From Marinomonas sp. MED121 (GTDB lineage Bacteria; Pseudomonadota; Gammaproteobacteria; Pseudomonadales; Marinomonadaceae), in the NCBI RefSeq assembly GCF_000153025.1, contig NZ_CH672429.1, forward strand, positions 65,822-129,821: DNA of 64,000 nucleotides. The letters run 5' to 3'. Of this stretch, positions 3,908-26,472 are shown piece after piece. The position numbers were made by a program, and so were the translations under genes. The notes under the pieces were generated by a model. That model searched no databases. It was not told where the DNA came from and was given only the letters and a program-made list of their open reading frames with translations. Numbering within the stretch: the first letter of the stretch is position 1; the number at the start of each line of letters is the position of its first letter.

Positions 3908-3909
3908 TT

Positions 3910-4860: not shown

Positions 4861-4905
4861 TCTCCCTATGTATGTTTAGAATCTACACCCGTATTTTGAC
4901 AATAA

Positions 4906-4930
4906 AAAAGCCGCTGTGAAAGCGGCTTTT
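4906..4930. terminator. Terminator after T6SS island 1
   Basis: Stem AAAAGCCGCT with AGCGGCTTTT and a 5-base loop. It lies just past the end of the minus-strand lipoprotein gene and before the cdsA-like gene on the same strand, separating the two units. Confidence 0.88.
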
Positions 4931-4947
4931 CCATTTTATAAATTGAA

Positions 4948-7601: not shown

Positions 7602-8536
7602 GCACTATTCTCCATCCATTCTTGTACATATTCTTGCTGCTCAGTATCCAGTTTTAGACTGGAAACAAGCTCATCCAATTCCGTTTGTGTTGCATGGGCA
7701 ATATGGGCTAATACCCAAAGCTCAGCGTCATCTTTTGACAGTTTTTGCTCTTTTGCTTTTTCAAAGCCCATTTCTAACTTAGCAAGTGGCTCCTTTAGTT
7801 TGCTCATGAGGCTCGGCAGTACTTCCCATAAGCGACGAGAAATAGCATAGGCATGGTGTTTAATATTGTATAAACCCTCTAAATGCTCAGGCGCGATAAT
7901 CCACCAAGGCTCAGTACGTACTTGATATTCTGCCGCCTTATCATTTTCTAAGGTAATAAAAGCCTTTTCAACATCAGCTGATTCTTCTAAAGAGCCCTCA
8001 GCGGTTTCTTCTGAAGAGCCTTCTGCTGGTTCTTCTAAAGAGCCCTCAGCTTTTTCTTCTGAAGAGCCCTCAGCGGTTTCTTCTAAAGAGCCTTCATCAA
8101 AAGCAGGTTGAATCAGCATGGAATCAATATTTCCCATAAATTCCGACTGTTCGGCTAGGCTAAAGATAGGCAACATTTGTGATAACACCTTGGTGTCATA
8201 AAACCTAAAAAGCACTTGCTCTTCTGCTAACTCAGCATTCAACAAACTACGTAAATGCCTGGCGATAAGCGCCTTTTCAGCTTGGGAATGCAACAAAATT
8301 CCTTGAGATAAAATACTCTCAGGTAAAGATAAAGCCACATCAGATATTGGAATAAGCCAAGGCGTTTGCGCCTTTAAAGTATCAAAAGGCGGCTCGATAA
8401 AAAGCGGCTCAGCAGAGGCCATAAAGCCCTGTACAGCCTGCTCTAAAAAGTAATCTTTTGCCTTTTCACAGGTACCATGATCAAGTAGCCAATAACAGTT
8501 TTGCTGATCATATTTTGCAAGCCAAGCTTCGCGCAT
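7589..8536 (-). CDS. DUF4123 T6SS adaptor/chaperone (Tap/TEC-like) with an internal repeat
   Basis: A 315-residue DUF4123 protein: the core block HLRSLLNAELAEEQVLFRFYD (residues about 92-112) is characteristic. DUF4123 proteins load a specific effector onto its cognate VgrG and are encoded between the two, as here. The ATG shares one base with the vgrG stop (TAATG), so translation is coupled. In the middle, five copies of an 8-residue acidic unit (EGS-L/S-EE-x-A) are encoded by a 24-bp tandem repeat at 7976-8095, just after the family core; this Glu/Ser-rich linker is not part of the domain and probably varies in copy number. Confidence 0.88.
   Translation of the reverse strand: MREAWLAKYDQQNCYWLLDHGTCEKAKDYFLEQAVQGFMASAEPLFIEPPFDTLKAQTPWLIPISDVALSLPESILSQGILLHSQAEKALIARHLRSLLNAELAEEQVLFRFYDTKVLSQMLPIFSLAEQSEFMGNIDSMLIQPAFDEGSLEETAEGSSEEKAEGSLEEPAEGSSEETAEGSLEESADVEKAFITLENDKAAEYQVRTEPWWIIAPEHLEGLYNIKHHAYAISRRLWEVLPSLMSKLKEPLAKLEMGFEKAKEQKLSKDDAELWVLAHIAHATQTELDELVSSLKLDTEQQEYVQEWMENSAWQL
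7976..8095 (-). repeat. 24-bp in-frame minisatellite, five units
   Basis: Five 24-bp units encode EGSLEETA, EGSSEEKA, EGSLEEPA, EGSSEETA and EGSLEESA without a break. Because 24 is a multiple of three, gain or loss of units would keep the frame and only change linker length in the DUF4123 adaptor. Confidence 0.92.
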
Positions 8537-10569: not shown

Positions 10570-10596
10570 GACATCAATCCATTTAATCTTTAATAG

Positions 10597-10627
10597 ATAA
10601 TAAGCTCATCGTCCTGATGCTTATTAT
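10597..10627 (-). other. Hairpin in the vgrG1 5' untranslated region
   Basis: A 9-bp inverted repeat (ATAATAAGC / GCTTATTAT) lies 28-58 bases upstream of the vgrG start, inside the predicted transcript. There is no long T tract after it, so it is not a classical terminator; an effect on translation or RNA stability is possible. Confidence 0.5.
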
Positions 10628-10691
10628 TTTCTGAGCAATGAGCCCAATTATTTAGGTTAGCGCCACATACATGGCGAAGCAGGCATATAAA

Positions 10692-10706
10692 GCAAATATT
10701 AGGCCA
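10692..10706 (-). promoter_or_regulatory. Sigma-54 (-24/-12) promoter of T6SS island 1
   Basis: On the minus strand the sequence reads TGGCCT-AATAT-TTGCT, matching TGGCAC-N5-TTGCW with the invariant GG and GC exactly 10 bases apart. Transcription would start about 112 bases upstream of vgrG. The equivalent site occurs at the same place before the second vgrG. Confidence 0.72.
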
Positions 10707-10756
10707 GAGAGGGTAAAGGCTTGAAATGACTAAGCTTTCAATAATAAAGCATGCCA

Positions 10757-10798
10757 TTAGGCAAACTATTGCTAAAAGCTGAGTAAGTTATTGCCTAA
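10757..10798 (-). promoter_or_regulatory. 42-bp dyad upstream of the sigma-54 site, candidate enhancer
   Basis: Outer arms TTAGGCAA and TTGCCTAA form a perfect 8-bp inverted repeat enclosing TTGCTAA and GAGTAA. It lies 51 bp upstream of the -24 box, a usual distance for a bacterial enhancer-binding protein. An ungapped copy with 30 of 42 identical bases occurs at 32841-32882. Confidence 0.65.
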
Positions 10799-10822
10799 GA
10801 AGGCCTTTCAACAATGACTTAA

Positions 10823-11085
10823 GGAACCTGCGATTAAGTCACCTCTTCTCAGTCTTATCAGAAAAAGAGTCAAACAAGGCGTCACTTTGAAGTAATGTAG
10901 GTACCTTTCAAGAAGGGACAACGAAGAGTGACATTTTTTCTGAAAGACCCGAAGGGCGTGGTCTAAAAGCCCTATCTTTAAGTTGAGGACCTTATCAATA
11001 GAATAACTATTAAGTTGCGCCCCTCGCCATAAATCTAGTTGCTTTTATCCACACGCTGAGGCGGGAGGACTTATTCGCAGGTTCC
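10823..11085. mobile_element. IS5-like MITE, copy 1
   Basis: A 263-bp non-coding element. It starts GGAACCTGCGATTAAGTC and ends with the inverted version (GACTTATTCGCAGGTTCC), an 18-bp terminal inverted repeat with one mismatch. TTAA stands directly on both sides as a 4-bp target duplication. The ends resemble IS5-type termini (GGAAGGTGCGAA...), and TTAA fits the IS5 target rule YTAR. No transposase is encoded. Related copies are at 53800-54114 and 61162-61425. Confidence 0.88.
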
Positions 11086-11119
11086 TTAACATTTATGGTG
11101 AGGATTCACAGGCAAAAAT

Positions 11120-11150
11120 AAACCCAATTAAAGTGGCTTTAATTGGGTTT
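11120..11150 (-). terminator. Terminator of the malate dehydrogenase gene at 11177
   Basis: A 14-bp stem (AAACCCAATTAAAG with its complement) and 3-base loop follow the gene's stop; on the minus strand it ends in a T-rich run. Confidence 0.88.
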
Positions 11151-11176
11151 CATATAAGTTTTGCGAGTGGTATTTA

Positions 11177-12157
11177 TTAGGGTAAAAGGTGGTTAATACT
11201 CGCCCTTTCTGCCATCAATTCTTGCTGTGTTTCTAACATGCGCGCTTTACTAAACTCACTTAACGCCAACCCCTGTTTTATCTCACACACGCCATCATGA
11301 CATTGCATAGGAAATGAATAAAACAAGCCTTTTTCAATCCCATAACTACCATCACTAAAGGTGGCCATACTGACAATGTCATCATTTTGAGTGCCCAAGG
11401 CCCAATCATGCATATGATCGATAATTGCTTGTGCCGCTGAGGCCGCTGAAGAGTGGCCACGGGCTTTAATGATTTCACTGCCGCGTTGCTGAATTTTAGG
11501 GATTAATTCATGATGATAATATGACTCATCAATTTGATTTAAAACCGATTTACCCGCTGCTTGTGCTTGGTTTAAATCAGGGTATTGAGTCGAAGAATGA
11601 TTGCCCCAAATAATCACATTTTCAACCGCTTCAGCGGTTACACCAAGATGTTTTGCCACCAAGCCTTTGGTCCGATTATGATCAAGCCTTGTTAAAGCGC
11701 TAAATTGTTTTGGATCTAAATCAGGTGCATTACGTGAGGCAATTAAGGCATTCGTATTCGCAGGATTACCCACCACCAGCACTTTCACATCTGGGCTTGC
11801 AAAGTCATTTAGCGCTTTTCCCTGACGCTCAAAAATTTGCGCATTAGCCGTTAATAGATCATTACGTTCCATACCCGCACTTCTTGGTCGAGCGCCAATC
11901 AAAATGGCGTAGTCCGCCCCATTAAAACCCTCTTCAGGGTTATCAAAAATACGGATATCTTGCAACAGAGGTAAAGCACAATCTTCCAATTCAAGGGCTA
12001 ATCCAGCTAGAGATGTCATTGCTTGTGAGACTTCCACCAGCTGCAATATAAGAGGCTGGTCTCTGCCAAGCATCTCCCCTGCAGCCAAACGAAATAAGAG
12101 TGAACTACTAATGCCACCAGAGGCACCTGTAACAGCAATACAAACGGGCTTTTTCAT
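11177..12157 (-). CDS. mdh: Malate dehydrogenase (type 2), paralogue 1
   Basis: A 326-residue NAD-dependent malate dehydrogenase of the cytosolic-like type 2 group. The Rossmann start [17 protein letters not shown], the substrate-binding [14 protein letters not shown] and the catalytic region [13 protein letters not shown] (catalytic His in the WGNHS motif) are all present. It interconverts malate and oxaloacetate in the TCA cycle. I place the start at the MKKP ATG because GAGGGGAG precedes it; the reading frame extends 19 codons further upstream but without a ribosome site. It ends at NHLLP, the normal family length. A close paralogue lies just upstream on the same strand with its own terminator between. 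Confidence 0.9.
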
Positions 12158-12381
12158 TATTCTCCCCTCAACAGGCAAATCTAAATAACTAAATAAGTGA
12201 ATCGTCTTACACATTCAATTGAGATGAGAATACAGGAAAGCACCACAGAGTGAAACGTATGTTTTATAATGTGAAATTGAGATATTTATATTTTATATAA
12301 GAATTCTCGTTAACCATTTTAGAAGGCTAAATGCCCTAATGATTTTAATAGGACAGCACAGGCTAATTGCCAATAAAAAAA

Positions 12382-12406
12382 GCCTGCTATCAATCCAATA
12401 ACAGGC
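12382..12406 (-). terminator. Terminator between the two malate dehydrogenase genes
   Basis: GCCTGTTAT pairs with ATAGCAGGC on the minus strand (one G-T pair), followed by a run of seven T. It separates the transcripts of the two paralogues. Confidence 0.8.
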
Positions 12407-12440
12407 CTTTAATGGGTTTGTCTTTTGCTTAAAAAACCTT

Positions 12441-13538
12441 TTATAAAAGGCGGTTAGTTTCCAACACAGCTGAACCTGATTTTAACAAACCGTCTCCTAC
12501 CAAGGTCTTCCCAGAGCGCAAACAAATGGTGAGGTTGGAATGAGACTCTTCTGTACCTTTAGGCAGTAAATGATTCACCGAGGCTTTTTCGTCCAATAGC
12601 TCAGCTTCTGTAATTTTCATTCTCTCTTTACTAAAGTCAGAAAGCTCAAGTCCTGTCACTATCTGATAACGGCCATAACGACAACGCACAGGGAAAGAGT
12701 AAAAAATCCCTTTTTCGATGCCATAACTACCGTCACTGACAATCGCCATGCTGACCAATTCATCCTCTGCTGTCCCTAATGCCCAATCTCGCATGTGATC
12801 GATAATCGCTTGAGCGGCTGAAGCGGCCGATGAGTGGCCACGGGCTTTAATAATTTCACTCCCCCTTTGCTGAATACGAGGAATTAACTCATCCCGATAA
12901 AAAGAGGTATCTAGCTGACCAAGAACTGCATCGCCAAAGATCCTGGCTTGATTTAAATCCGGATACTGAGTCGATGAATGGTTACCCCAAATGATCACCT
13001 TATGAATCTCTTCAGCATTAACCCCTAAATAATTTGCGACCATCCCTTTGGTTCTATTGTGATCTAAACGTGTCATGGCGGTAAATTGTGTCGGACTTAA
13101 ATCAGGAGCATTTCGACTAGCAATCAGAGCGTTAGTATTGGCAGGGTTACCCACCACCAAGACTTTTACATCACGTGCTGCGGTTTCGTTTAATGCTTTA
13201 CCTTGGCGCTCAAATATTTCGGCATTGGCCGTTAATAGGTCGTTACGCTCCATACCTGCAGAGCGCGGGCGAGCACCGATTAAAATCGCATAATGGGCGT
13301 TTTCAAAACCCGCTTCAGGGTTATCAAAAATTCGAATGGTGTGCAGCAAAGGTAAAGCACAATCCTCTAACTCCATCGCTAAACCACGTAATTGCTCCAT
13401 TGCCTGGGGCACTTCAATAAGCTGTAAAATAACAGGCTGATCCGTGCCAAACATTTCGCCAGCGGCGACACGAAACAATAAAGAACTGCTGATTGCCCCA
13501 GCAGCACCAGTGACAGCAATACGTACGGGTTTTTTCAT
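12441..13538 (-). CDS. mdh: Malate dehydrogenase (type 2), paralogue 2, with C-terminal extension
   Basis: A 365-residue paralogue of the gene at 11177-12157, matching it along the whole catalytic fold ([40 protein letters not shown]). After the point where paralogue 1 stops (NHLLP) it continues for about 39 residues ([18 protein letters not shown]...), an extension I do not recognise. The start is the MKKP ATG, aligned with paralogue 1. Two intact enzymes with different C-termini suggest different regulation or stability; which one is the main TCA enzyme cannot be told from sequence. Confidence 0.9.
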
Positions 13539-13933
13539 TATTTTGCCCTTTTTTAAATATGAGTTTTGCTAAAATTTGATGATTAGACCCCCTCATACTC
13601 AATCGTCTCAGGGTATCCTTTAAACCATTAAAACATTCGCCACAAAACACTTTTATCTTAAGACGACTCTCACCAAGTTAATCAAACCAAGGGAGCGTCC
13701 TCTTATTAAATACATAAAAGTAATAGAGCCCAAAGCCATTTAAGAGACTTAAACTTGTCTTAATGAACCCTCAAATTACCCTATTTAAAAAACCAGCTAA
13801 AATGAATTTTCATCCTCTTTTATTGAGTAAAATAAATATAAAAAATATCCACTATAAATAAACTATATACTTGGAATTTTAAAGATAAAAACACTTTAAA
13901 ACCAAATAATTACAAGTATAAATCACTATTCGT
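13539..13933. other. Intergenic region upstream of mdh paralogue 2
   Basis: About 395 bases without a gene, very AT-rich towards 13820-13920. It must hold the promoter of the minus-strand mdh gene and the 3' end signals of the asnC-type gene. A distant inverted pair ATACTTG/CAAGTAT is visible near 13868-13917, but I see no convincing terminator or operator. Confidence 0.5.
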
Positions 13934-14416
13934 TCAAATCACCAATGGCACAGATAACCCCACTTTTACCGGGTCCATGACCACATTTGTTTCAAAATGG
14001 CGAATGTTTAAGTTTTCAAAAAACACATCGCGAGTAAAAGCTTCGTAATCTGCCATATCTTTTGCTGTGACCACTAAAATGAAATCGGCGCTGCCTGTTA
14101 CGTAATAACATTGCTGCACATAAGGGTGACGTTTCATTTCCTTTTTAAAGGTATCCAACAGATCCAACCTTTCTCTTTCTAAAGTGACCTGCACAATCAA
14201 GGTGACCGCACGCCCCACTGCTTTTGGGTTCACTAACGCCACATCGGCACTGATAATGTTTTGCTCTCGCATACGCTTCATTCGCCTTTGAACGGCAGCA
14301 GCAGACAAGCCGACTTGCTCAGCAATTTGCTCTGAAGTGGCTCGATTTGAAGCTTGGATAATATCAAGAATTTTCGCATCGAATGCATCATAGCTTGTTG
14401 ATTGAAGGTCACTCAT
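13934..14416 (-). CDS. Lrp/AsnC-family transcriptional regulator
   Basis: A 160-residue regulator. Residues about 10-60 form the winged helix-turn-helix (ATSEQIAEQVGLSAAAVQRR) and residues about 70-150 the RAM ligand-binding domain (YYVTGSADFILVV). Such proteins sense amino acids or related metabolites and often control a divergent catabolic operon. Here it diverges from the EutA-like/M20/TRAP/M24 operon across 286 bases, so it is the likely local regulator. Two direct 10-base repeats just upstream of its start may be its operator. Confidence 0.88.
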   Translation of the reverse strand: MSDLQSTSYDAFDAKILDIIQASNRATSEQIAEQVGLSAAAVQRRMKRMREQNIISADVALVNPKAVGRAVTLIVQVTLERERLDLLDTFKKEMKRHPYVQQCYYVTGSADFILVVTAKDMADYEAFTRDVFFENLNIRHFETNVVMDPVKVGLSVPLVI

Positions 14417-14432
14417 AAATCACACCACCCAC

Positions 14433-14455
14433 TTGGTTTCAAAATTTGGTTTCAA
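14433..14455. promoter_or_regulatory. Direct repeat, candidate operator of the Lrp-type regulator
   Basis: TTGGTTTCAA occurs twice, 13 bases start to start, 17-39 bases upstream of the regulator's ATG and inside the divergent promoter region. Confidence 0.4.
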
Positions 14456-14702
14456 TAGAAGCTCAGCTCAAGCGCCTTCTATTTATAGGATTAAAGAAAG
14501 CTTTCATAGTGAAGAATTGTGACGAGAGTTTTCACGCATTTTTATCAAAATTTTGCGGCGGTTCTTCATCCTGCCCTCATTATTGCATGAAATTCCGCAT
14601 TTCAAAGGCGTAGCATGGATACATGACTTAGCCGCAGAGCAAATACAAGGTTTAACTTGCTGTTCATAGGCCATACCAAGGATCCAAAATCGATAAGAGA
14701 GC

Positions 14703-15464
14703 ATGATGAAAATATTCAATGTACAGCATCAGCAACCTTTAGAACGCCTCGCTCCAGCAGGACGTATCGGTGTGATTGCGTTAGCAACAGACTTCAATAT
14801 CGAAATGGATCTGTCTCGTATGTATCCAGATGATGTGCAATTTTTTACCAGCCGCGTCAAAAACATCAACCCTTTGACGATTGAGAATCTGCGCACCATG
14901 GCACCCGGCATCACAGAGACGGCGGCCACACTATTACCCGGTACGCAACTTGATGCCATTATGTATGCCTGCACCTCTGGCACTATCGCCATAGGTGTAG
15001 AGCGCATTACTCAGCTAATTCAACAGGTACAACCAAATGTGCCAGTGACTAACCCTGTCACCTCTGCCTTAGCGGCATTCGATCAATTCAAAGCAAAAAA
15101 AATATCGATTCTTACCCCTTATACCGAAGCCGTTAACCAAGAAGTTGCCGATTTTTTCAGTAACCAAGGATACGAAGTACTCAGTATTGCAGGGTTTGGC
15201 TTTGAAGATGATACAGCCATGACTTATATCACAGCACAGGATATTCAAGATGCCGCTCTCGCTACATGCGATGAAGAGGCAGATCTCATGTTTATCTCCT
15301 GCACCGCATTACGCGCCTCGTTAGTGCTAGACACGTTAGAAGCCAAACTCAAGATCCCTGTGATTAGCAGCAATCAAGCTTTAACTTGGCACAGCTTACA
15401 GTTACTGCAATACCCTAAGCGAGTCACTGGATTTGGCCGCTTACTGTTACAAAAACACCTTTAA
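14703..15464 (+). CDS. Asp/Glu racemase-superfamily protein, EutA/maleate isomerase-like
   Basis: A 253-residue member of the Asp/Glu racemase-maleate isomerase-arylmalonate decarboxylase superfamily. Both catalytic cysteine motifs are present: YACTSGT near residue 90 and SCTALR near residue 200. Two Cys favour a racemase or cis-trans isomerase over a decarboxylase, which needs only one. The closest recalled group is EutA of ectoine-utilisation loci. First gene of a plus-strand operon with an amidohydrolase, TRAP transporter and M24 hydrolase. Two ATGs (14703 and 14706) overlap and either may be used. The substrate is not known. Confidence 0.75.
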   Translation: MMKIFNVQHQQPLERLAPAGRIGVIALATDFNIEMDLSRMYPDDVQFFTSRVKNINPLTIENLRTMAPGITETAATLLPGTQLDAIMYACTSGTIAIGVERITQLIQQVQPNVPVTNPVTSALAAFDQFKAKKISILTPYTEAVNQEVADFFSNQGYEVLSIAGFGFEDDTAMTYITAQDIQDAALATCDEEADLMFISCTALRASLVLDTLEAKLKIPVISSNQALTWHSLQLLQYPKRVTGFGRLLLQKHL

Positions 15465-15501
15465 ACAAGCTTAACCCTGATTAGAAAAGAGAAGTTTAGA
15501 T

Positions 15502-16662
15502 ATGTCCTTAGATCCACAACTCATACAACAAATGACCCAATGGCGTCGCCACATGCATAGCTTTCCTGAATGTGGCTTTGACCTACCATTAACAGCTGAT
15601 TTTATTGCAGAAAAGTTAGAAAGCTTTGGCCTTGAAGTCATTCGTCATATTGGCAAACAAGGCATAATCGCCGTGTTAAGAAGTGGTGATGGCCAAAAGA
15701 GCATAGGCCTTAGGGCTGATATGGATGCCCTTTTTATCAATGAAGAAAACACCTTCGCTCACTGCTCAATGCACCAAGGAAAAATGCACGCCTGCGGCCA
15801 TGATGGACACTCTGCCATGTTATTAGGCGCAGCCAGTTATCTTGCTCAAAACAAAGATTTTAACGGTACGGTTTACTTTATCTTTCAGCCGGATGAAGAG
15901 CATGGCGAAGGTGCACAAGCCATGATAGATGATGGCCTGTTTGAACGCTTTCAGATTGATGCGGTTTATGGGTTACACAATATGCCGGGGCTCGCTGAAG
16001 GTAAATATATTGTGAGACCCGGCTCTTTAATGGCCAGTGAAACCAGTTTTGAAATTGTCATAAATGGCATAGGTGGTCATGCGGCTATGCCACATAAAGG
16101 CGTTGATCCGATTGTAGTGGGTTCTCAAGTCATTTTAGGGCTTCAAACCATCGTCTCACGTAACCTCAACGCCATTGAAGAAACCGCGGTTGTGTCTGCC
16201 ACAGAGTTTCTCACCAATGGCACAGTCAATGTCATCCCATCAAAAGTCACTATTAAAGGTGACTGCCGCTGCTTTAGTGAGGCAAGCCTTGCCAAAATTG
16301 AAGAGAGCATGGAACGCATTGTTTCTGGTATTTGTCATGCAGCGGGTGCGCAATATGAATTCACCTTTAGCAATGCATTTTACCCAACGGTGAACAATCC
16401 AGTTCAAACCCAGCATGCTATTGCGGCTGCGAACAAAGTATTTGGCAAAGACAATGTCGACCCAGATTGCTTACCCCTTACGATTTCAGAAGATTTCTCC
16501 AGCATGTTAAGGGTTAAACCAGGCTGTTACGCCCTTATCGGCAATGGGGTGGAATCCGTTGGTGGCTGTGCACTTCATAACCCTAATTACGACTTTAACG
16601 ACAATATTCTAGGCTTTGGCGCTCAATACTGGGTACAGCTGGTCTCGGATCAATTGGCCTAA
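15502..16662 (+). CDS. M20D amidohydrolase (N-acyl amino acid hydrolase family)
   Basis: A 386-residue metallohydrolase of the hippurate hydrolase/IAA-amino acid hydrolase type. Metal-binding motifs: ACGHDGH near residue 96, QPDEEHGEGA near residue 130, and LHNMPG; the dimerisation-domain motif GGHAAMPHKGVDP follows. The family removes acyl groups from N-acylated amino acids or cleaves small amides. It is not of the AstE/AspA family to which the ectoine enzyme DoeB/EutE belongs, so a different or variant substrate is likely. It sits 37 bases after the EutA-like gene and 70 before the TRAP binding protein. Confidence 0.85.
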   Translation: MSLDPQLIQQMTQWRRHMHSFPECGFDLPLTADFIAEKLESFGLEVIRHIGKQGIIAVLRSGDGQKSIGLRADMDALFINEENTFAHCSMHQGKMHACGHDGHSAMLLGAASYLAQNKDFNGTVYFIFQPDEEHGEGAQAMIDDGLFERFQIDAVYGLHNMPGLAEGKYIVRPGSLMASETSFEIVINGIGGHAAMPHKGVDPIVVGSQVILGLQTIVSRNLNAIEETAVVSATEFLTNGTVNVIPSKVTIKGDCRCFSEASLAKIEESMERIVSGICHAAGAQYEFTFSNAFYPTVNNPVQTQHAIAAANKVFGKDNVDPDCLPLTISEDFSSMLRVKPGCYALIGNGVESVGGCALHNPNYDFNDNILGFGAQYWVQLVSDQLA

Positions 16663-16732
16663 TTTGGCTATCTAAAGGCAAAAATCAATCAAGCAAACCT
16701 TAACTCTAACAATAAAATCTAAGGAAATTCAC

Positions 16733-17770
16733 ATGAAAAAACTATTAACTACATTACTGGCAATGGGCATTAGCATGGGTGCTAGCGCAGAAACTTGGAA
16801 GTTTGCCTCAGAAGAAGATAAAAAAGATGTGCAAGATATCTTTGCACAAACCTTTGCTAAAACGATCAAAAAAGAATCCGATGGTGATATTCGCGTCAAA
16901 GTTTATTACTACGGCCAGCTTGGCACAGAGAATGACATTGTTGAGCTCACTGCTAAGGGCACGGTGCAATTTGTCTCTGTGGGTACTGGGCACCTGGGTT
17001 CTTATGTCCCTGAAGTACAAGCGCTTAGCGTACCTTATGTAATGGGCACAGAAACAGACGTTGTGCGTGAAGTATTAACGGGCAGTAAAACCATTTATCA
17101 AGACCTTGCTGATAAATTTGAGCGCGTAAACTTGAAGCTACTGACCATGATATCTGAAGGTGAAATGGTATGGGGAGCGAATAAGCCAATTCGTAGCCCA
17201 GAAGATTTTGCAGGACAGAAAATTCGTACTTTCACCTCAACGATCCCAGTTGAAACCTATAAAGCCTTTGGTGCAACACCCACACCTTTATCTTGGGGCG
17301 AAGTCTATGGTGCACTTCAACTTAAAACCGTGGATGGCATGGTTAACCCTATTTACTTCGTATACAACGCCAAATGGCATGAAGTACAAGATTACCTAAT
17401 GCTGCCAGGTCAACAACCTTACGTAGGCACAGTGTCAACTAACAGCAAATGGTTCAATGGCCTTTCAAGTGATAAACAAGCCATGGTTCGTAAAGCCATT
17501 AAGGTTGCAGAGCAAGCCGCCCATGATTACCAGCTTAAAATCAATGCTGAAAACATGAAGAAAATCATGGCTGAACGTCCTGACATGCAGGTTGTAACCC
17601 TTAATGCAGATGAACGCGCTCGTTTCAAAGCACTGAGCACAAATCTACATGAGACTTACTACAATGTGGTTGAAAATGCTTACCAAGCTAGCGATAAAGC
17701 AGAAGCCCGTGCCGGCGCGAAGAAGATACTTCAAAGCTTAATTAAAGAAGTAAACGACGCCTCTATGTAA
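16733..17770 (+). CDS. TRAP transporter solute-binding protein (DctP family)
   Basis: A 345-residue periplasmic binding protein with a Sec signal peptide (MKKLLTTLLAMGISMGASA, cleavage before ETWKF). The DctP-family features are present: GQKIRTFTS, whose Arg usually contacts a carboxylate, and TPTPLSWGEVYGALQLKTVDG. It captures an organic acid or zwitterion for the adjacent permease. The operon suggests an N-acyl or cyclic amino acid derivative, but the ligand cannot be read from sequence. Confidence 0.9.
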   Translation: MKKLLTTLLAMGISMGASAETWKFASEEDKKDVQDIFAQTFAKTIKKESDGDIRVKVYYYGQLGTENDIVELTAKGTVQFVSVGTGHLGSYVPEVQALSVPYVMGTETDVVREVLTGSKTIYQDLADKFERVNLKLLTMISEGEMVWGANKPIRSPEDFAGQKIRTFTSTIPVETYKAFGATPTPLSWGEVYGALQLKTVDGMVNPIYFVYNAKWHEVQDYLMLPGQQPYVGTVSTNSKWFNGLSSDKQAMVRKAIKVAEQAAHDYQLKINAENMKKIMAERPDMQVVTLNADERARFKALSTNLHETYYNVVENAYQASDKAEARAGAKKILQSLIKEVNDASM

Positions 17771-17858
17771 TACCCCAAGCCTTAGGCCTAACCCTTTACG
17801 TCAAGACAAAGGTTAGGTCTAAGCATTTGCTTTTACTGCTTTATTAAGGTGTGTTCTT

Positions 17859-18374
17859 ATGAAAAAAATCCTCTTTCACATCAGCCGTGTTACTGAAACC
17901 ATCGAAAAAACCATTGTTTTTTCATCTATTCTGCTGATGATGGCCAACTCTACTGCGAACGCAATTGGCCGTTATGCATTTGGAAAGAGCCTCTTCTTTT
18001 CGGAAGAACTCAACCAATTTTTAATTGTTGCGATTACCTTTATAGGCTTTGCTTACGCGGTTAGAAAAGGCCGTAATATTCGCATGACAGCCTTATATGA
18101 CTCGCTTAATTTCCCTGCCAGAAAGTTCATTGCCACATTAATTGCTATCACAACAGGCCTATTAATGTTTTACCTTTCTTATAAAGCCTGTCTCTATGTG
18201 ATGGAAGTAAAAGACCTAAATCGTTTAAGCCCCGCCTTACAAATCCCCGTTTATTGGGTGTTTTCCATCATCCCAATTGGCTTAGCCATGGCAGGACTTC
18301 AATACATGATTGCCTTCTTTATGAACCTTACCCATAAGGAGATTTACTTATCTCACGACACAGTTGATATCTAG
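17859..18374 (+). CDS. TRAP transporter small permease (DctQ)
   Basis: A 171-residue inner-membrane protein with four hydrophobic segments and the DctQ pattern (NAIGRYAFGKSLFFSEELNQF in the first loop, then GFAYAVRKGRNIRM). It pairs with the large permease 56 bases downstream to form a sodium-driven tripartite transporter. Confidence 0.88.
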   Translation: MKKILFHISRVTETIEKTIVFSSILLMMANSTANAIGRYAFGKSLFFSEELNQFLIVAITFIGFAYAVRKGRNIRMTALYDSLNFPARKFIATLIAITTGLLMFYLSYKACLYVMEVKDLNRLSPALQIPVYWVFSIIPIGLAMAGLQYMIAFFMNLTHKEIYLSHDTVDI

Positions 18375-18430
18375 CCCAAACAATACACATCAGGTTATCA
18401 ACTTTTTTAAGGTTTAATGAGTACCCTTTT

Positions 18431-19777
18431 ATGAGTTCATTTATCGAGTTTTTTTCAGACATTATTGCCGGTGAATTAGACATCTATGTTGTCACTTTCA
18501 CACTCGTGGCAAGCATGGTTATTTTATTATTCTTAAGTTTTCCTATGGTGGTGCCACTCGCGGTTGGTGCCTTGATTGGCTTAATCCACTTTTCAGGCAT
18601 AGATACTGGTGTCATCATTCAACAAATGATCACAGGTATTTCCCCTAATGCCTTGATTGCCGTACCCATGTTTATTTTGGCAGCCGATATTATGACACGC
18701 GGTCATACGGCCAATAATCTATTAGGTTTAATTCAAGCCTTTATCGGCCATTTACGTGGCGGCTTACCTATTACAGCTTGTATTAGCTGCACCTTGTTTG
18801 GCTCTGTTTCAGGCTCGACACAGGCGACTGTGGTTTCTGTCGGCCAGATCATGCGTCCACGATTATTACAGGCAGGCTATAAAGACAGTTTTGTCATGGC
18901 GCTGATTATCAATGCCAGTGACATTGCCTTTTTGATACCACCCAGCATAGGTTTGATCCTGTATGGCACCTTGGCCAATACCAGTGTGGGCGAGCTCTTT
19001 ATTGCCGGGATTGGACCAGGCATTTTGTTGGCAATCATGTTCTCAGCTTATTGCTATTTTTATAGCGTCTTGCAAGGGGACAGCATTCGCTTAGTTGAAA
19101 AAGCGACACTTAAAGAGAGAGTCACTGCCTTTAAAAAAGCACTGATTCCACTGGGGTTCCCTGCTTTGATTGTCGGTGGTATTTACTCTGGCGCGGTAAC
19201 ACCAACGGAAGCGGCATCTTTTTCGGTGCTTTATGCCATCATAGTTGAGTGCTTTATTTATCGTCAGCTTAGCTTAAAAGATGTGATTGATGCGGCTTTA
19301 AGTACGGGTTTAATTACCGCGGTGGTTTTCATCCTTGTGGGGATGGGGCAAGCTTTTTCTTGGTACATTTCATTTGAGCAAATCCCACAAGACTTACTGG
19401 CACCACTTAACCTTGAAGATGCCTCTAAAGAGTATATTCTCTTTGTGATTGCCTTAAGCTTTTTTGTGGGCTGCATGTTTGTAGATTCACTCGTCGTACT
19501 CGTCATTCTGACACCTATCTTTGTCCCTATCGTAGATGCTGCCGGTTTAGACCCTGTGCTTGTAGGTGTCATGATTACCTTACAAATGGCCATTGGGTCC
19601 GCCACACCTCCTTTTGGTTGTGATATTTTCACTGCTATTGCTATTTTCAATAAGCCCTATATGGAAGTGATTAGAGGGACATTACCCTTCATACTTATCT
19701 TATTTACCATGTCGGCCTTATTGATTTACTTCCCTGATATTGCCCTATTATTACGGGATCTGGCATTTTCTGACTGA
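18431..19777 (+). CDS. TRAP transporter large permease (DctM)
   Basis: A 448-residue polytopic membrane protein of the DctM family with about twelve membrane segments. Family motifs include FGSVSGSTQATVVSVG, LIPPSIGLILYG and the later SATPPFGCDIF. It is the translocation subunit for the substrate bound by the protein at 16733. Gene order P-Q-M is the usual one. Confidence 0.92.
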   Translation: MSSFIEFFSDIIAGELDIYVVTFTLVASMVILLFLSFPMVVPLAVGALIGLIHFSGIDTGVIIQQMITGISPNALIAVPMFILAADIMTRGHTANNLLGLIQAFIGHLRGGLPITACISCTLFGSVSGSTQATVVSVGQIMRPRLLQAGYKDSFVMALIINASDIAFLIPPSIGLILYGTLANTSVGELFIAGIGPGILLAIMFSAYCYFYSVLQGDSIRLVEKATLKERVTAFKKALIPLGFPALIVGGIYSGAVTPTEAASFSVLYAIIVECFIYRQLSLKDVIDAALSTGLITAVVFILVGMGQAFSWYISFEQIPQDLLAPLNLEDASKEYILFVIALSFFVGCMFVDSLVVLVILTPIFVPIVDAAGLDPVLVGVMITLQMAIGSATPPFGCDIFTAIAIFNKPYMEVIRGTLPFILILFTMSALLIYFPDIALLLRDLAFSD

Positions 19778-19827
19778 CTCATACATAAGCCAATTTAGCC
19801 CATTTAACACAGAGAATAAAACGAATC

Positions 19828-21021
19828 ATGAAGACAGAACTAATTGCACCACCACGGGGTTTTGATCAAGTCGAATTTGAACAAAGAACCGAAAGGCTTC
19901 AAGCTTTAATGGCTAAACAAAATATTGACGCCCTATTTTTAACCACTGAGCCTGAGTTTCGTTACTTCAGCGGTTTTAAGTCTCAATTTTGGGAAAGCCC
20001 AACAAGGCCTTGGTTTTTAGTCATTCCAGTGACAGGCAAGCCAATTGCTGTGGTGCCAGAAATTGGTAAAGCAGGCTTTGATGAAACTTGGATAGAGGAT
20101 GTCAGATGTTGGCCCTCTCCAAGGCCTGAAGATGACGGTATCAGCTTACTAAGAGATACCTTGATAGAAGTATCAAACACCAGTTTTCAAATTGGTGCCA
20201 TGCTTGGCCCAGAAACACACCTGCGTATGCCTGCTGATAACTACCAGTCTTTAAAGCGTTCATTAAACCAAAGTGTTGGACGTCATCAAATACAAGACAT
20301 TAACGGCTTAATTAGACAAGTGCGCAGTGTTAAATCCCCTGCTGAGGTTGCCAAAACCCGCTTTGCTTGTGAAGTTACGGCTGCAGGCTTTGATTATCTA
20401 CTTGAGAACCTAAAAGCAGGCATGACAGAAAGACAAGCCTGTAAAGCCATGCAATTAGAAATGCTTCGTCTTGGCGCTGATACTTGCCCTTACCTTATCT
20501 CCGCATCCGGTCAAAATGGATACGACAATATCATCATGGGGCCAACGGATCGTATTCTCACCCAAGGAGATGTATTGATCATAGATACAGGTGCGAATTT
20601 TGATGGCTACTTTAGTGACTTTGATCGCAACTATGCCTTTGGCCAAGTCGATAAACACACCCATTATGCTTACGAGGCTGTTTACGCTTCCACAGAAGCA
20701 GGGCTAGAAACGGCGAGCGCAGGCAAAACCACGGGAGATGTCTGGCAAGCCATGTGGAATGTACTCGAAAATGCCGGCGCACTGGGTAACGATGTGGGCC
20801 GTATGGGTCACGGATTAGGTATGCAGCTCACTGAGTGGCCCTCTAATGTCGAAAACGGTGACGTGACTTTAGAAGCCGGCATGATACTCACACTTGAGCC
20901 TGGGATGACCTTTGCACCAGGAAAAATGATGGTGCATGAAGAAAACATTCTCATCACTGAAACAGGCTGCGAGCTTCTACACAAACGTGCTTGGCCAAAA
21001 CTGCCTGTGATAAATAGCTAA
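19828..21021 (+). CDS. M24-family hydrolase (Xaa-Pro peptidase/creatinase/ectoine hydrolase-like)
   Basis: A 397-residue protein with creatinase N-domain and pita-bread C-domain. All five metal ligands of M24 peptidases are present: Asp in IIDTGA (about 252), Asp in FSDFDR (about 263), His in GHGLGM (about 326), Glu in LEPG (about 356) and Glu in HEEN (about 371). So it should be a metal-dependent hydrolase, not a metal-free creatinase. Length and context fit DoeA/EutD ectoine hydrolases or prolidases; sequence alone does not decide. Last gene of the operon, followed by a terminator shared with the T6SS island. Confidence 0.82.
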   Translation: MKTELIAPPRGFDQVEFEQRTERLQALMAKQNIDALFLTTEPEFRYFSGFKSQFWESPTRPWFLVIPVTGKPIAVVPEIGKAGFDETWIEDVRCWPSPRPEDDGISLLRDTLIEVSNTSFQIGAMLGPETHLRMPADNYQSLKRSLNQSVGRHQIQDINGLIRQVRSVKSPAEVAKTRFACEVTAAGFDYLLENLKAGMTERQACKAMQLEMLRLGADTCPYLISASGQNGYDNIIMGPTDRILTQGDVLIIDTGANFDGYFSDFDRNYAFGQVDKHTHYAYEAVYASTEAGLETASAGKTTGDVWQAMWNVLENAGALGNDVGRMGHGLGMQLTEWPSNVENGDVTLEAGMILTLEPGMTFAPGKMMVHEENILITETGCELLHKRAWPKLPVINS

Positions 21022-21040
21022 ACTAGATGTCAATAAAACA

Positions 21041-21065
21041 ACCCAGTCTTAGATAAAGACTGGGT
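21041..21065. terminator. Bidirectional terminator between the TRAP operon and T6SS island 2
   Basis: Perfect 10-bp stem ACCCAGTCTT / AAGACTGGGT with a 5-base loop between converging genes. Confidence 0.85.
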
Positions 21066-21087
21066 ATAAAAACGTCATTTACGTTTT

Positions 21088-21513
21088 CTATATAACCAGC
21101 TTTTCCTCTACTGATTTATGAACTAATGACAGTTCAAAGAACTCACCATATTTTTTATATGATTCAATATTTAATTTCATAGACTCAGGCATATCTGAAT
21201 CGTTTAAATCAATCATCTCGTTAACAGTTTTTTGTATTCTTTTTGAATAGATTTTTTTTGCAACATTCTCAAGGTAAAAAGATGACATAACAATGAAGCA
21301 TCCTATTATGCTTAAAGATCCAGGATAGCTCTGTAAACTCACAAAAAAATCAGGACCTGGAAAAGGTCCAAAGATCACAAATATAGTGCCAACAATAAAT
21401 ACAAACACGCCTGTTAGAGCAAGGTCTAAAAACGAACCTGGTTTTGGTGGGAGGGCAATTCTTATTTTACAAGGCAAATCACTGACCTTAATTTTATCCT
21501 TAGTGTATTCCAT
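21088..21513 (-). CDS. Small two-helix membrane protein at the end of T6SS island 2
   Basis: A 141-residue protein not recognised from any family. It has two hydrophobic segments (about residues 30-50, LTGVFVFIVGTIFVIFG, and 62-82, SLSIIGCFIVMSSFYL) joined by a short loop, and a charged cytoplasmic-looking C-terminal tail. It is the last minus-strand gene of the island, separated from the LRR gene before it by a terminator hairpin, so it may have its own promoter. Small inner-membrane proteins are used as immunity factors against membrane-acting T6SS toxins (the VasX/TsiV2 type), which makes that a possible role here. Confidence 0.6.
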   Translation of the reverse strand: MEYTKDKIKVSDLPCKIRIALPPKPGSFLDLALTGVFVFIVGTIFVIFGPFPGPDFFVSLQSYPGSLSIIGCFIVMSSFYLENVAKKIYSKRIQKTVNEMIDLNDSDMPESMKLNIESYKKYGEFFELSLVHKSVEEKLVI

Positions 21514-21580
21514 TAAACATCCATTTTTAAAATTAACTTAAAATCAAACTCAGCTTAAAACGGTTTCAGTACAACTTCAT

Positions 21581-21610
21581 AAAAAAGCCCGAAACAGGTC
21601 GGGCTTTTTT
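21581..21610. terminator. Terminator after LRR gene 3
   Basis: AAAAAAGCCCGA-AACAGG-TCGGGCTTTTTT, a perfect hairpin with flanking A and T tracts. The same hairpin core recurs after LRR gene 1, and a decayed form after LRR gene 2. Confidence 0.9.
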
Positions 21611-21620
21611 AATAATGAAA

Positions 21621-23150
21621 TTAAAACCTTAGATATCTATGCGTATCATAATATTTTTCTTTTTCTTCGTCGGTCAAAACATCAGAAAGAGGTGTGTCCC
21701 TAATAATGAGCTTGGTATTTTCTAAGCCCACTATCGATTGATAGTCAAAGGTATCAATTGGATTATTATTCAAAGAAAGAACATCTAGCCAAGTCATAAA
21801 ATTAATCGCGTCTATTTCTTTAATTTCATTATATCCCAGCAAAACACTTTCCAAATTAGGCAAATTTTCAAAACCTTCAATTTTTTCTATTTTATTATAT
21901 TGAAGATTTATTTTCTCTAGACCAACCAATTTAGATAGCCCTTGTATTTTCATAATACCATTACCTAAAAGATTTAAAACTTTAAGATTTTTAAGGTTAT
22001 TTAATCCTGAGATTTCTGAAATCTCATTTTTAATAAGATTAAGTTTTTCAAGTTCTTCAAGTCTTTCAATGCTTCTTATTCTTGTTCTTGAAATTGTTAA
22101 ATCCTTTAAATTTATATTTCCTTTTAAGTTAGGCATTCTAGTATTTTGCATACCAGCTAATTGTAAATGTACTAAAGAATCAGGAAAATCAATTTCTTGA
22201 AAATTAAAAGATGAACCCACAGAAAGTCTTTTAAGACTCTTTAAAGAACTAATGTTTTTAATTTCTTCAATATTTTTCGAGTTAAAAGTCAAATAAACAA
22301 GATTTATAAAACCAGATAAGTCAGGAATTTCTTTAATAGAGTTGCTGCTACTAATTATATCCATTCTTTGTAAATACGAGTTCTCAGTTAATTCATTTAA
22401 GCTTTTTATTTTAACTCCGTCGAGAACTAGGTTTTGCAAAGAAGTCATTGATTTCAGGTTTGAAATTTCATTTATTGGAGTGAAAAGAATTTCCAAACTA
22501 ACAATTTCATTCTCTGATGGTAATATCAATTTCTTATATTTAGACTTGTGAATTTTAACATAGCTTACATTTTTTAATTTTTTTAAATCTAAAACAGCCA
22601 AACCTGAGTTATCATTTCTTATAGAAAGTCCTTTTAAAGCATTAAAATTTTCAATTACATATTTAATTTCAAAACTATATTTAGGAGAAACGCTTAAATA
22701 AGTAACATTTCCAGAATCATTTAAAACAACATAATTTTCTAAAAATTCAAAATTTTTTATTTTAGTTTTTCTATGTATATTAATATTAGGAAACGCCCCA
22801 TAAACAATATCGCTCAAATCATCGGTAGTGTTTATCAAGTTTGTATTATAACCATCAACAAAAGTCTCAAACTTTCTAACCCTATCACCATTTTCCTGTG
22901 CAATTTTCTCCTGAAAAGCTAAAAAATCCTGATACTGTTTAGATTTTTTTATGATCTCAGCCGCCTTACCTGATTTATCGGCATAATCCAGCTCTTGTGC
23001 ATAGGCATTAAATTGCCAAGTTAAGCCAAGCATAAGGCTTAAGAGCATAAAAAATGATTTACGAATGTTCGACATGGATTTTTTAAAACCCTTACCTGAA
23101 CTTAACTCTGCAAGATTATTGTCTTTTAGGCTTGTTCCTAAATTCATCAT
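21621..23150 (-). CDS. Exported leucine-rich-repeat protein, copy 3
   Basis: A 509-residue protein. A Sec-type signal follows a long N-terminal lead (SFFMLLSLMLGLTWQFNAYA, predicted cut before QELDYA). A conserved 35-residue block (SGKAAEIIKKSKQYQ...GDRVRKF) comes next, then about 300 residues of SDS22-like leucine-rich repeats with the pattern L-x-x-L-x-x-L-x-L-x-x-N-x-I (for example LKVLNLLGNGIMKIQGL). Its first 70 codons are nearly identical to copy 2, but the C-terminus (DTPLSDVLTDEEKEKYY) differs from copies 1 and 2. The location is probably periplasmic. The gene is clearly more AT-rich than the vgrG and housekeeping genes around it. Function unproven; it lies downstream of a large T6SS cargo candidate, so immunity is a strong guess. 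Confidence 0.75.
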   Translation of the reverse strand: MMNLGTSLKDNNLAELSSGKGFKKSMSNIRKSFFMLLSLMLGLTWQFNAYAQELDYADKSGKAAEIIKKSKQYQDFLAFQEKIAQENGDRVRKFETFVDGYNTNLINTTDDLSDIVYGAFPNINIHRKTKIKNFEFLENYVVLNDSGNVTYLSVSPKYSFEIKYVIENFNALKGLSIRNDNSGLAVLDLKKLKNVSYVKIHKSKYKKLILPSENEIVSLEILFTPINEISNLKSMTSLQNLVLDGVKIKSLNELTENSYLQRMDIISSSNSIKEIPDLSGFINLVYLTFNSKNIEEIKNISSLKSLKRLSVGSSFNFQEIDFPDSLVHLQLAGMQNTRMPNLKGNINLKDLTISRTRIRSIERLEELEKLNLIKNEISEISGLNNLKNLKVLNLLGNGIMKIQGLSKLVGLEKINLQYNKIEKIEGFENLPNLESVLLGYNEIKEIDAINFMTWLDVLSLNNNPIDTFDYQSIVGLENTKLIIRDTPLSDVLTDEEKEKYYDTHRYLRF

Positions 23151-23193
23151 TTTTCTTTATTTAGCTCATTTATGCACAGATAAAATTCAAAAA

Positions 23194-23213
23194 AAGCCCT
23201 ATACTGATCGGGC
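23194..23213 (-). terminator. Decayed hairpin after LRR gene 2
   Basis: AGCCC / GGGCT with a 10-base loop, in a spacer nearly identical to that between LRR genes 1 and 2; the stem has lost two base pairs and the T tract is weak. Confidence 0.5.
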
Positions 23214-23233
23214 TAAACTTACAATATGAAACA

Positions 23234-24788
23234 TTAAAAACCAAGCTGTCTATTCAATTTACGATATTTCTTCTTTTCAGCCTTAGTCATAGCATCGCCT
23301 ACAGGTGTATCGTAAAGAAGAATTTTGGTTTGATTAAGCTTCTCAACTTCTGAGTAATCAAAAGCTTCAATAGGGTTTTCAAACAAAGATAACAACTCTA
23401 TTCCTTCAAGTTTATTAACATCTTCGACCTTTTCAATCTCATTATAACTTAGCAAAATTTCTTTTAAATTTGGAAGATTATCAAAACCTTCAATTTTCTT
23501 TATTTTATTATATTTTATTATATTTTAGGTTTATTTTTTCAACATTTTTTAGCATTGACAAACCTTCAACTCTTTTTATTTTATTTCCAGATAAATTTAG
23601 CACTTTAAGATTAATAAGATTATTTAGACCTGAAATTTCTTCAATATCATTACTTACTAAATTAAGAGTCTCTAAATAATTAAGGCTATCCAGTCCTTCA
23701 ATTTTTTTTATTTTTGTTCTTGTTATACCTAACTCTCTTAATTTTTTATTATTTTTTAAATTGGGTATTTTAATATTTTCAATGCCAGACAAGTAAATTT
23801 CTTCGATTTTATTCGGAAACCTTATATCATTGAACTTGTAATTTGAATTTACATATAAAAACTTTAACTCTAACAAATCAGAAATCCCTATAAAGGGCTC
23901 AATGCTTTTTGAGATAATAGATAGATACTGTAGTTTTTTATAATTGAATAAATTTGGTATTTTTAAAGTTGAATCTTTAGAATTCAAAATATCCAATTGC
24001 TTAAGTTTTTTAGATTTTTCTAAGAGACTAAAATCATTTAAAATCAGACCCTTTACTTCAAAATTTTTAAGACTTTCACTTTTATCTAAGTTTATTATTC
24101 TTTTAGTATTTGTACTATATAATCTAATAGACTCTAAATCACTTACTTTTGGAAGATACAACTTTTCGATATCAACATCATTCAAATGTAAATATTTAAT
24201 ATTCCTGAAGCTTGTAAAGTCTAATTTTTCATAATGAAAATCATTACCAAAAGAAGGCGAAGAAGAAAAACCTAACAATTCTTTTTTGTTTTTAAAAAAA
24301 CCTATAACTCTATTTAATTCTGTTTTATATTTAGGTGATAAGTTAATATATTTAATAGTTCCATCAAAATTTAAATATAAAAAATCCTTAAGTAGCTCTA
24401 TGGATTTATTGTTTTTCATTTCTATATATGGGTAGTAGCTTTCCTTTTTTGTTATTTCATTAAACTCTCGATAAAATTCCTTTCCGTTAACACCATCAAC
24501 TACTATTCTAAATTTTCTAACTCTATCCCCATTTTTCTCAGCAATCTTCTTCTGCAAAGCTAAAAAAGCTTGATACTGCTTCGAGTTTTTTATGATCTCA
24601 GCTGCCTTACCTGATTTATCGGCATAATCTAGCTCTTGTGCATAGGCATTAAACTGCCAAGTTAAGCCAAGCATAAGGCTTAAGAGTATGAAAAATGATT
24701 TACGAATGTTCGACATGGATTTTTTATAACCCTTACCTGAACTTAACTCTGCAAGATTATTGTCTTTTAGGCTTGTCCCTAAATTCAT
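23234..24788 (-). pseudogene. Exported leucine-rich-repeat protein, copy 2, frameshifted by a 10-bp duplication
   Basis: The first 426 codons (24788 to 23508) and a second frame (from about 23500 to 23234) together give a 514-residue paralogue of the flanking LRR proteins. The frames are separated by one extra copy of a 10-bp unit at 23501-23520. With one unit removed, the sequence reads KYNKIKKIEGFDNL in a single frame and the length equals that of the paralogues. The signal peptide and first 70 codons match copy 3, while the C-terminal 30 codons (DTPVGDAMTKAEKKKYRKLN) match copy 1, so the gene is a mosaic. GGGA before the ATG supports the start. As it stands, translation stops inside the last repeats; the truncated exported protein may still be made. 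Confidence 0.8.
23501..23527 (-). repeat. 10-bp tandem duplication causing the LRR2 frameshift
   Basis: The unit TATTTTATTA occurs twice in full and a third time for seven bases. The intact paralogues correspond to one full unit plus the partial one. Loss of one unit restores the frame, so slippage could switch the gene. Confidence 0.9.
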
Positions 24789-24836
24789 AATTTCCCTTTA
24801 TTTAGCTCATTTATGCACAGATAAAAACCATAAAAA

Positions 24837-24856
24837 AGCCCGAAACAGGTCGGGCT
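24837..24856 (-). terminator. Hairpin between LRR genes 1 and 2
   Basis: AGCCCGA-AACAGG-TCGGGCT, the same core as the terminator after LRR gene 3, but followed on the minus strand by six T only. It may reduce read-through from gene 1 to gene 2. Confidence 0.7.
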
Positions 24857-24872
24857 AATTTGAAATTGATTT

Positions 24873-26423: not shown

Positions 26424-26472
26424 CTCTTTCCTCTACTTAATTTATAATTCCTAAAAAATTAAAACCTAGAAA

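Follow-up and report, generated by a model that had tools for sequence, protein, structure and literature searches.

The window analysed here is a stretch of 64,000 nucleotides of Marinomonas sp. MED121 (contig NZ_CH672429.1), and at 13934-21021 it carries a seven-gene unit in which an Lrp/AsnC-type regulator diverges from genes for a EutA-like protein (Amd), an M20D deacylase, a TRAP transporter and an M24 metallohydrolase. We read this operon as a system for the uptake and catabolism of an ectoine-like, osmolyte-type zwitterion, with a final elimination to pyruvate and ammonia by a diaminopropionate ammonia-lyase (DAPAL), and we put the probability of this reading only slightly above one half (about 0.52). 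An N-acyl or cyclic 2,3-diaminopropionate fits best as the substrate, with hydroxyectoine as the main rival. A preliminary description of the stretch had proposed such a seven-gene operon, and had further proposed that the locus, though like those for ectoine, acts on a different amino acid, N-acylated or cyclic. All seven open reading frames are in place and match the named families, by the list of reading frames and by profile scans, and the second proposal is supported by an M24 metal site that is kept and a genome that contains no EutD over the curated cut-off.

In the pathway whose substrate, order of steps and products we infer here, the TeaA/UehA-like TRAP system would import the zwitterion, the M24 metalloenzyme would open its ring or cleave its amide bond, the M20D enzyme would remove an acyl group, and the EutA-like enzyme, with its two cysteines, may epimerise an intermediate. 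The resulting 2,3-diaminopropionate (or other beta-substituted alanine) would then be converted to pyruvate and ammonia by a pyridoxal phosphate (PLP)-dependent lyase of the DAPAL type, which is encoded on another contig (C5) of the same genome. Since the endpoint would be pyruvate rather than aspartate, neither a transaminase nor a dehydrogenase would be needed.

The lyase beside related operons

The gene order of the window (Lrp on the minus strand, then Amd, M20, the three TRAP genes in the order P-Q-M, and M24) is found in seven further gammaproteobacterial loci, with 60-99% identity per protein, and the arrangement is therefore more than chance. These loci are L014 (Marinomonas sp. SBI8L), L015 (Neptunomonas antarctica), L016 (Motiliproteus sp.), L051, L115, L081 (a Photobacterium plasmid) and L089 (a 1.8-Mb Vibrio replicon). 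SBI8L is the closest named relative found, with 90-99% protein identity over the seven genes. The operon is rare in the genus: among 48 Marinomonas genomes, only that of MED121 has an M24 match at E <= 1e-60, and SBI8L, which comes from another collection, is also positive.

Of the seven orthologous loci, six (L015, L016, L051, L081, L089 and L115) have a DAPAL gene next to the Lrp gene; in L014 none lies beside the unit, and the rest of the SBI8L genome was not searched for a lyase. The three adjoining lyases that were scored (L015, L016 and L081) reach 507-511 bits on the DAPAL model NF006058 (cut-off 276). In MED121 the corresponding gene is on contig C5 (530431-531618), is 71% identical to the DAPAL of L015, and lies tail to tail with a second Lrp gene, which is 72% identical to that of the window. 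The C5 lyase and Lrp genes are thus the left half of the orthologous arrangement, and the window holds its right half. The C5 protein scores 505 bits on NF006058, 357 on the narrower TIGR03528 (cut-off 532, which it does not reach), and 59 on the EutB model (cut-off 413). It also keeps the residues aligned to K77, D120 and D189 of structure 4d9g, which we take to be catalytic. This DAPAL occurs only in MED121 among the 48 genus genomes, one other of which has a 48% relative.

The association extends beyond these orthologues. Searches with the window M24 at E <= 1e-60 gave 16 loci in 369 genomes of the class and 24 loci in 23 of 398 genomes of the phylum (MED121 itself excluded), and all 40 neighbourhoods, L115 among them, were compared by tblastn with a set of reference proteins, some of which came from the same loci. 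Within 8 kb of M24, a DAPAL-family lyase is present in 28 of the 40 (21 of these within 100 bases), a EutA-like gene in 29, an M20 gene in 8 and an Lrp gene in 5. A control set of 20 EutD loci, drawn from the 57 EutD matches of the phylum sample, contains no DAPAL (0/20); two of them have only 28% and 33% matches to it (58 and 64 bits), which we took as EutB. On plasmids, where 29 records have an M24 match, the 17 loci examined (two of which are strains of one species) include a lyase in 12, Lrp in 14, M20 in 11 and a EutA-like gene in 7. The M24-lyase pairing spans marine Gammaproteobacteria and plasmids of roseobacters and of Rhizobiales. Two Mesorhizobium plasmid loci, L088 and L095, have an M24 relative with genes annotated as heme-binding protein and aminotransferase, and Lrp and amidohydrolase genes a few kilobases away.

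The DAPAL-family lyases beside M24 fall into three groups, with 31-36% identity between one representative of each. One group exceeds the cut-off of the YgeX-type model TIGR03528 (567 and 557 bits against 532; two tested), the main group stays below it (321-357 bits in five tested), and the third falls slightly short of the NF006058 cut-off (264 bits against 276; one tested). All 46 of the lyases compared retain the lysine and the second aspartate; the first aspartate is kept in 26/26 of the main group and in 0/20 of the other two. Taking D120 to act on the D-isomer and D189 on the L-isomer, we considered whether an L-only lyase is paired with a racemase, and rejected the idea: a EutA-like neighbour accompanies 17/20 lyases with alanine at position 120 and 17/25 with aspartate, a difference that is not significant (Fisher p 0.30).

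Two further features of these neighbourhoods concern the chemistry of the step. A RidA gene stands beside the lyase in five loci (L053, L055, L082, L116 and L117), which fits a beta-eliminating PLP step because RidA clears the 2-aminoacrylate that such enzymes release (PMC9127364). On an Aminobacter plasmid, a gene for cystathionine beta-lyase lies downstream in place of DAPAL, and this variation in the lyase at one position suggests that the pathway requires a PLP enzyme that carries out beta-elimination.

A predicted operator may also connect the two halves. The window Lrp is 66-90% identical to its counterparts in the seven orthologous loci, and in all eight loci the region between Lrp and Amd contains a palindrome near TGMGGAAWTTCCKCA with 0-4 mismatches of 15; seven lyase genes have a copy upstream, with 1-4 mismatches. 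None of 300 shuffles was as good for either of the two upstream sets, a test that is not independent because the consensus was written after both sets had been inspected. The C5 DAPAL may be co-regulated with the operon.

For the M20 and DAPAL steps there is a precedent in the reductive degradation of uric acid by Escherichia coli, in which an M20 hydrolase, YgeY, and a DAPAL, YgeX, turn albizziin into pyruvate (PMC12507026); the M20 enzyme there releases 2,3-diaminopropionate, which the DAPAL converts to pyruvate and ammonia, as proposed here. The two systems differ in that the available text of that source names no M24, EutA-like or TRAP component for the pathway, and the window operon has no purine-ring enzymes. 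On the YgeY models, with cut-offs of 321 bits, the window M20 protein scores no more than 20-24 bits.

Enzymes and transporter compared with ectoine catabolism

The M24 protein is one point of departure from ectoine catabolism. Each of the 64 aligned M24 proteins retains, at every position that its sequence covers, the five residues that we take to be the metal ligands (D253, D264, H328, E357 and E371); one sequence is truncated. EutD has E, P, Y, M/I and T at these positions, and the ligands are lost in 11/11 aligned EutD proteins, all of them over the curated cut-off (11 of the 20 fetched loci were aligned). The window protein scores 59 bits on the EutD model TIGR02993 (cut-off 613) and 79 on the DoeA model NF038259 (cut-off 575), and the MED121 genome (97% complete) contains no EutD over the cut-off, the best match having 49 bits. 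With an intact metal site in its M24 protein and no EutD over the cut-off in the genome, this is most probably not a plain ectoine locus. The nearest solved structures are proline dipeptidases (E 7.6e-27), and the intact site is shared with these Xaa-Pro dipeptidase/aminopeptidase P (M24B) enzymes. The protein differs from them in falling far below the cut-off of the PepQ_Arch model (108 bits against 630) and in a genomic context that is not one of peptide use.

The M20D protein keeps all five presumed metal-site residues, as do 26/26 aligned relatives. It matches the model of DoeB2, an M20-type N2-acetyl-diaminobutanoate deacetylase (NF038260), over its full length at 310 bits without reaching the cut-off of 550, and its score on the generic M20D model is a little better (316). 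Its nearest solved structures are a homologue of indole-3-acetic acid (IAA)-amino acid hydrolase and YxeP. No N-acetyl-diaminobutyrate deacetylase (EutE/DoeB or DoeB2) qualifies among the seven genes, to which this search was confined.

The EutA-like protein is a full-length homologue that misses the curated EutA cut-off (225 bits against 318 on TIGR02990); since none of the 390 genomes of an order sample reaches this cut-off, which may be strict, the miss is weak evidence. Both active-site cysteines are kept in 43/43 relatives where covered. A second active-site cysteine marks racemases, and arylmalonate decarboxylase has a glycine at position 74 and a single active-site cysteine (PMC4996985), so that the two cysteines place the protein with the racemase/isomerase type rather than with the decarboxylase. 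Arylmalonate decarboxylase was accordingly rejected as its identity, the second cysteine (C90) being present and the score on NF052327 only 78 bits against a cut-off of 225.

Two other loci with a EutA-like gene were seen. On contig C7 of MED121, locus L012 (9736-15630) has a second EutA-like gene (45% identical), preceded by a separate TRAP system of TeaA-like type whose binding protein is 41% identical. A LysR regulator is also present, as is a divergent gene similar to those of urea-amidolyase-associated proteins, and the stretch showed no match to the window M24 or M20. Locus L052 has a EutA-like gene (6157-6918) beside a large gene (3693-6182) that by eye resembles a flavin adenine dinucleotide (FAD)/GcvT-type protein of L091, and its stretch has no match to the window M24.

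The best solved relatives of the TRAP binding protein are TeaA (3gyy and 2vpn) and UehA (3fxb), at E 1e-64 to 2e-59; 2vpn and 3fxb are named as such in PMC5924519. Ectoine-type binding is therefore likely from its sequence, and, with the protein closest to TeaA and UehA, ectoine binding alone would not make the operon a plain ectoine locus. At the positions that we take to form the TeaA pocket (E9, F66, W167, F209 and others) the protein is similar to TeaA, with two changes, F66 to H and F209 to Y, that are constant in the eight orthologues. Binding proteins of two EutD loci were compared: L151 has the same H/Y pair and L152 has F at both positions, so that the pocket residues do not separate the substrates and were discarded as a discriminator.

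Other transporters accompany M24 elsewhere. EhuABCD occurs with M24 in L087 and L096, where EhuB exceeds its cut-off and DAPAL is absent; in L091, which has DAPAL, EhuB scores 178 bits (cut-off 191). L082 has a BCCT carrier closest to the betaine model (463 bits, cut-off 650), and L053, L116 and L117 have EamA carriers. The TRAP Tea/Ueh, Ehu and BCCT partners point to an osmolyte-like zwitterion, and the EamA and amino-acid ATP-binding cassette (ABC) types are less specific.

Taken together, the operon resembles an ectoine catabolic cluster, including the doe cluster of Halomonas elongata, in its layout (a TRAP system probably of the same type, a EutA-superfamily protein, an M24 protein, a deacylase and an AsnC/Lrp regulator), but it falls outside on the defining tests, namely the EutD score, the loss of the metal site, DoeB2 and the EutA cut-off. 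The window M24 keeps a metal site that is absent in EutD; an M20D enzyme takes the place of EutE and DAPAL that of EutB; and no EutC, Ssd or Atf was recognised in the operon. Lrp-type proteins occur in 12 of the 20 EutD loci, with 27-32% identity to the window Lrp in 11 and 55% in one. The regulator EnuR is not among the seven operon genes, the only ones searched for it. A search of the MED121 genome for ectoine synthase gave no match, and neither did its control.

Several of these comparisons bear on what the preliminary description had listed as missing. Among open reading frames of at least 100 amino acids at 10000-26000, nine of which were scanned against NCBIfam and the remainder judged by eye, we recognised no eutB or eutC, no AstE-type deacetylase and no transaminase/semialdehyde dehydrogenase pair (Atf/Ssd; the rest of the genome was not searched for these two). 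The statement on the dehydrogenase/transaminase pair holds for this region as made. That on eutB needs qualification: DAPAL is a PLP lyase related to EutB, and its gene stands next to six of the seven orthologous units and, in this genome, on C5. The contrast drawn between M20D and AstE is correct as to the genes present, but an M20 enzyme alone does not distinguish the locus, as DoeB2 is itself curated for ectoine.

Alternative substrates and points against the proposed pathway

A number of observations weigh against the pathway proposed here. In the MED121 genome DAPAL is unlinked to the operon; the site upstream of the C5 lyase has 3/15 mismatches to the predicted operator, and upstream of the second Lrp gene on C5 there is no copy (7/15 mismatches, no better than any of 300 shuffles). 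Twelve of the 40 M24 loci, some of them cut by contig ends, have no DAPAL-family lyase within 8 kb, and five (L100, L101, L114, L119 and L123, with L114 cut by a contig end) have no DAPAL, Amd or M20. Other partners are found at M24: cystathionine beta-lyase in L083, EhuABCD without DAPAL in L087 and L096, D-amino acid dehydrogenase in the Mesorhizobium loci L088 and L095, and a large FAD/GcvT-type protein in L091, L099, L108 and L123. In L083, L086, L092, L094 and L098, amino-acid type ABC transporters take the place of the osmolyte types. With partners and transporters this varied, the members of the M24 family do not necessarily all act on the same substrate. Finally, we know of no natural, abundant osmolyte based on diaminopropionate.

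The strongest alternative, which we consider unlikely, is a second route for hydroxyectoine: M24 would open 5-hydroxyectoine, M20 would deacetylate the product to 3-hydroxy-2,4-diaminobutyrate, the EutA-like protein would invert a centre, and the DAPAL-type lyase would eliminate water. Such a route would parallel, part for part, EutA, EutB, EutD, EutE and AsnC of the hydroxyectoine arm (PMC5924519), and it suits a TRAP protein closest to TeaA and UehA whose altered H/Y pair recurs in the EutD locus L151. Against it, M24 is not EutD, the lyase prefers the DAPAL model by far (505 bits, cut-off 276) to that of EutB (59 bits, cut-off 413), and no EutC-like gene was found in the window operon, the relatives not having been searched for one. 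A second route would also often be redundant, since a EutD match (E <= 1e-150) accompanies this M24 in 18 of 23 genomes of the phylum sample, compared with 37 of 374; only 6 of the 18 matches exceed the curated cut-off, and the co-occurrence is confounded by ancestry, 17 of the 23 genomes belonging to one family.

Scavenging of dipeptides or N-acyl amino acids seems to us less probable again. Here M24 would act as a prolidase-like dipeptidase, M20 as an aminoacylase, the EutA-like protein as a racemase for D-residues, and DAPAL on serine- or cysteine-like residues. The nearest solved structures of both hydrolases agree with such roles, and in some plasmid loci of Rhizobiales the ABC binding protein resembles the lysine/arginine/ornithine type, though without reaching the cut-off. 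Against this reading, the transporters of the TRAP and Ehu families that accompany the unit are of the ectoine type, and a DAPAL-family lyase would be unexpected for general peptide use.

A narrower version of the diaminopropionate pathway, which we offer as speculation, is that a so far unreported member of the ectoine family with a 2,3-diaminopropionate skeleton, such as 4,5-dihydro-2-methylimidazole-4-carboxylate (DHMICA) or N-acetyl-diaminopropionate, occurs in the sea, and that the operon is its dedicated uptake and degradation pathway. We know of no report of DHMICA in nature. It is a five-membered-ring analogue of ectoine, described as synthetic (PMC6890836). By simple chemistry its hydrolysis would give N-acetyl-diaminopropionate; M24 would thus open the ring, M20 would remove acetate, and DAPAL would give pyruvate and two ammonia. 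The ectoine family is still being extended: a paper of 2024, cited in PMC11644330, added 2-homoectoine, which comes from phyto- and bacterioplankton.

An N-methylated diaminopropionate, such as beta-N-methylamino-L-alanine (BMAA), or another N-methyl betaine, demethylated by proteins like sarcosine/dimethylglycine dehydrogenase or of the DUF1989 type, is very improbable. It would account for the FAD/GcvT-type proteins mentioned above, whose best models (sarcosine oxidase alpha, GcvT and trimethylamine N-oxide demethylase) all score below cut-off, and for a protein of L113, 3' of its EutA-like gene, that by eye resembles the DUF1989-type protein of L012; it leaves the M24 and M20 steps without an explanation, and the FAD/GcvT-type protein is unmatched in the window operon and its seven orthologues. 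Least probable of all is a plain ectoine locus with substituted enzymes, to which the transporter, the EutA-like protein and the Lrp-type regulator would conform, but for which EutD is ruled out by score and metal site, the product 2,4-diaminobutyrate would, as we reason from its chemistry, offer DAPAL no beta leaving group, and the transaminase/semialdehyde dehydrogenase pair was not recognised near the operon.

If an ectoine-like solute is indeed degraded through diaminopropionate, part of the dissolved organic nitrogen of the sea would have both a source and a sink for which our searches found no name. The main text of a 2026 survey of ectoine catabolism (PMC13188858) does not contain the word diaminopropionate, and no description of this cluster was found in the accessible portions of the open-licence literature on diaminopropionate ammonia-lyase. 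Automatic annotation ("Asp/Glu racemase", "Xaa-Pro peptidase", "amidohydrolase") hides such a pathway. The TRAP binding protein of the operon can be purified and could reveal the substrate directly.

Features of the operon and its surroundings

The features of the unit are collected in Table 1. Intergenic gaps in the plus-strand run are 37-88 bases, and scans for promoters and terminators gave no excess over shuffles.

Table 1. Positions in the window, strands and supporting matches of the operon features
Feature	Position	Strand	Remarks
Lrp/AsnC-type regulator	13934..14416	-	divergent from the operon; PF01037 and PF13404 over cut-off
Divergent Lrp-Amd intergenic region	14417..14702	.	predicted operator, imperfect palindrome near TGMGGAAWTTCCKCA, 3/15 mismatches
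EutA/Asp-Glu racemase superfamily protein (EutA/Amdase)	14703..15464	+	TIGR02990 225 bits, cut-off 318; C90 and C200 kept
M20D aminoacylase/deacylase	15502..16662	+	TIGR01891 316 bits, cut-off 154; C98, H100, E133, H159 and H359 kept
TRAP solute-binding protein (DctP), TeaA/UehA ectoine-binding type	16733..17770	+	profile and structure matches
TRAP small permease (DctQ)	17859..18374	+	profile match
TRAP large permease (DctM)	18431..19777	+	profile matches; 57% identity to the permease in EutD loci L151 and L152
M24 metallohydrolase	19828..21021	+	PF00557 145 bits, cut-off 23; D253, D264, H328, E357 and E371 intact

Directly before the Lrp gene, the window has two tandem malate dehydrogenase genes (11177-13538), both over the NF003916 cut-off; the pair is also present in L014 and has no match in the other six orthologous loci. 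Further upstream (8536-10569) is a gene that by eye resembles VgrG, a type VI secretion spike, with a similar gene at the same place in L014. On the other side, G+C drops from about 0.43 to 0.27 directly after the operon (21088-27000), and this low-G+C stretch encodes a row of paralogous proteins that share a common N-terminus and by eye are leucine-rich-repeat-like.

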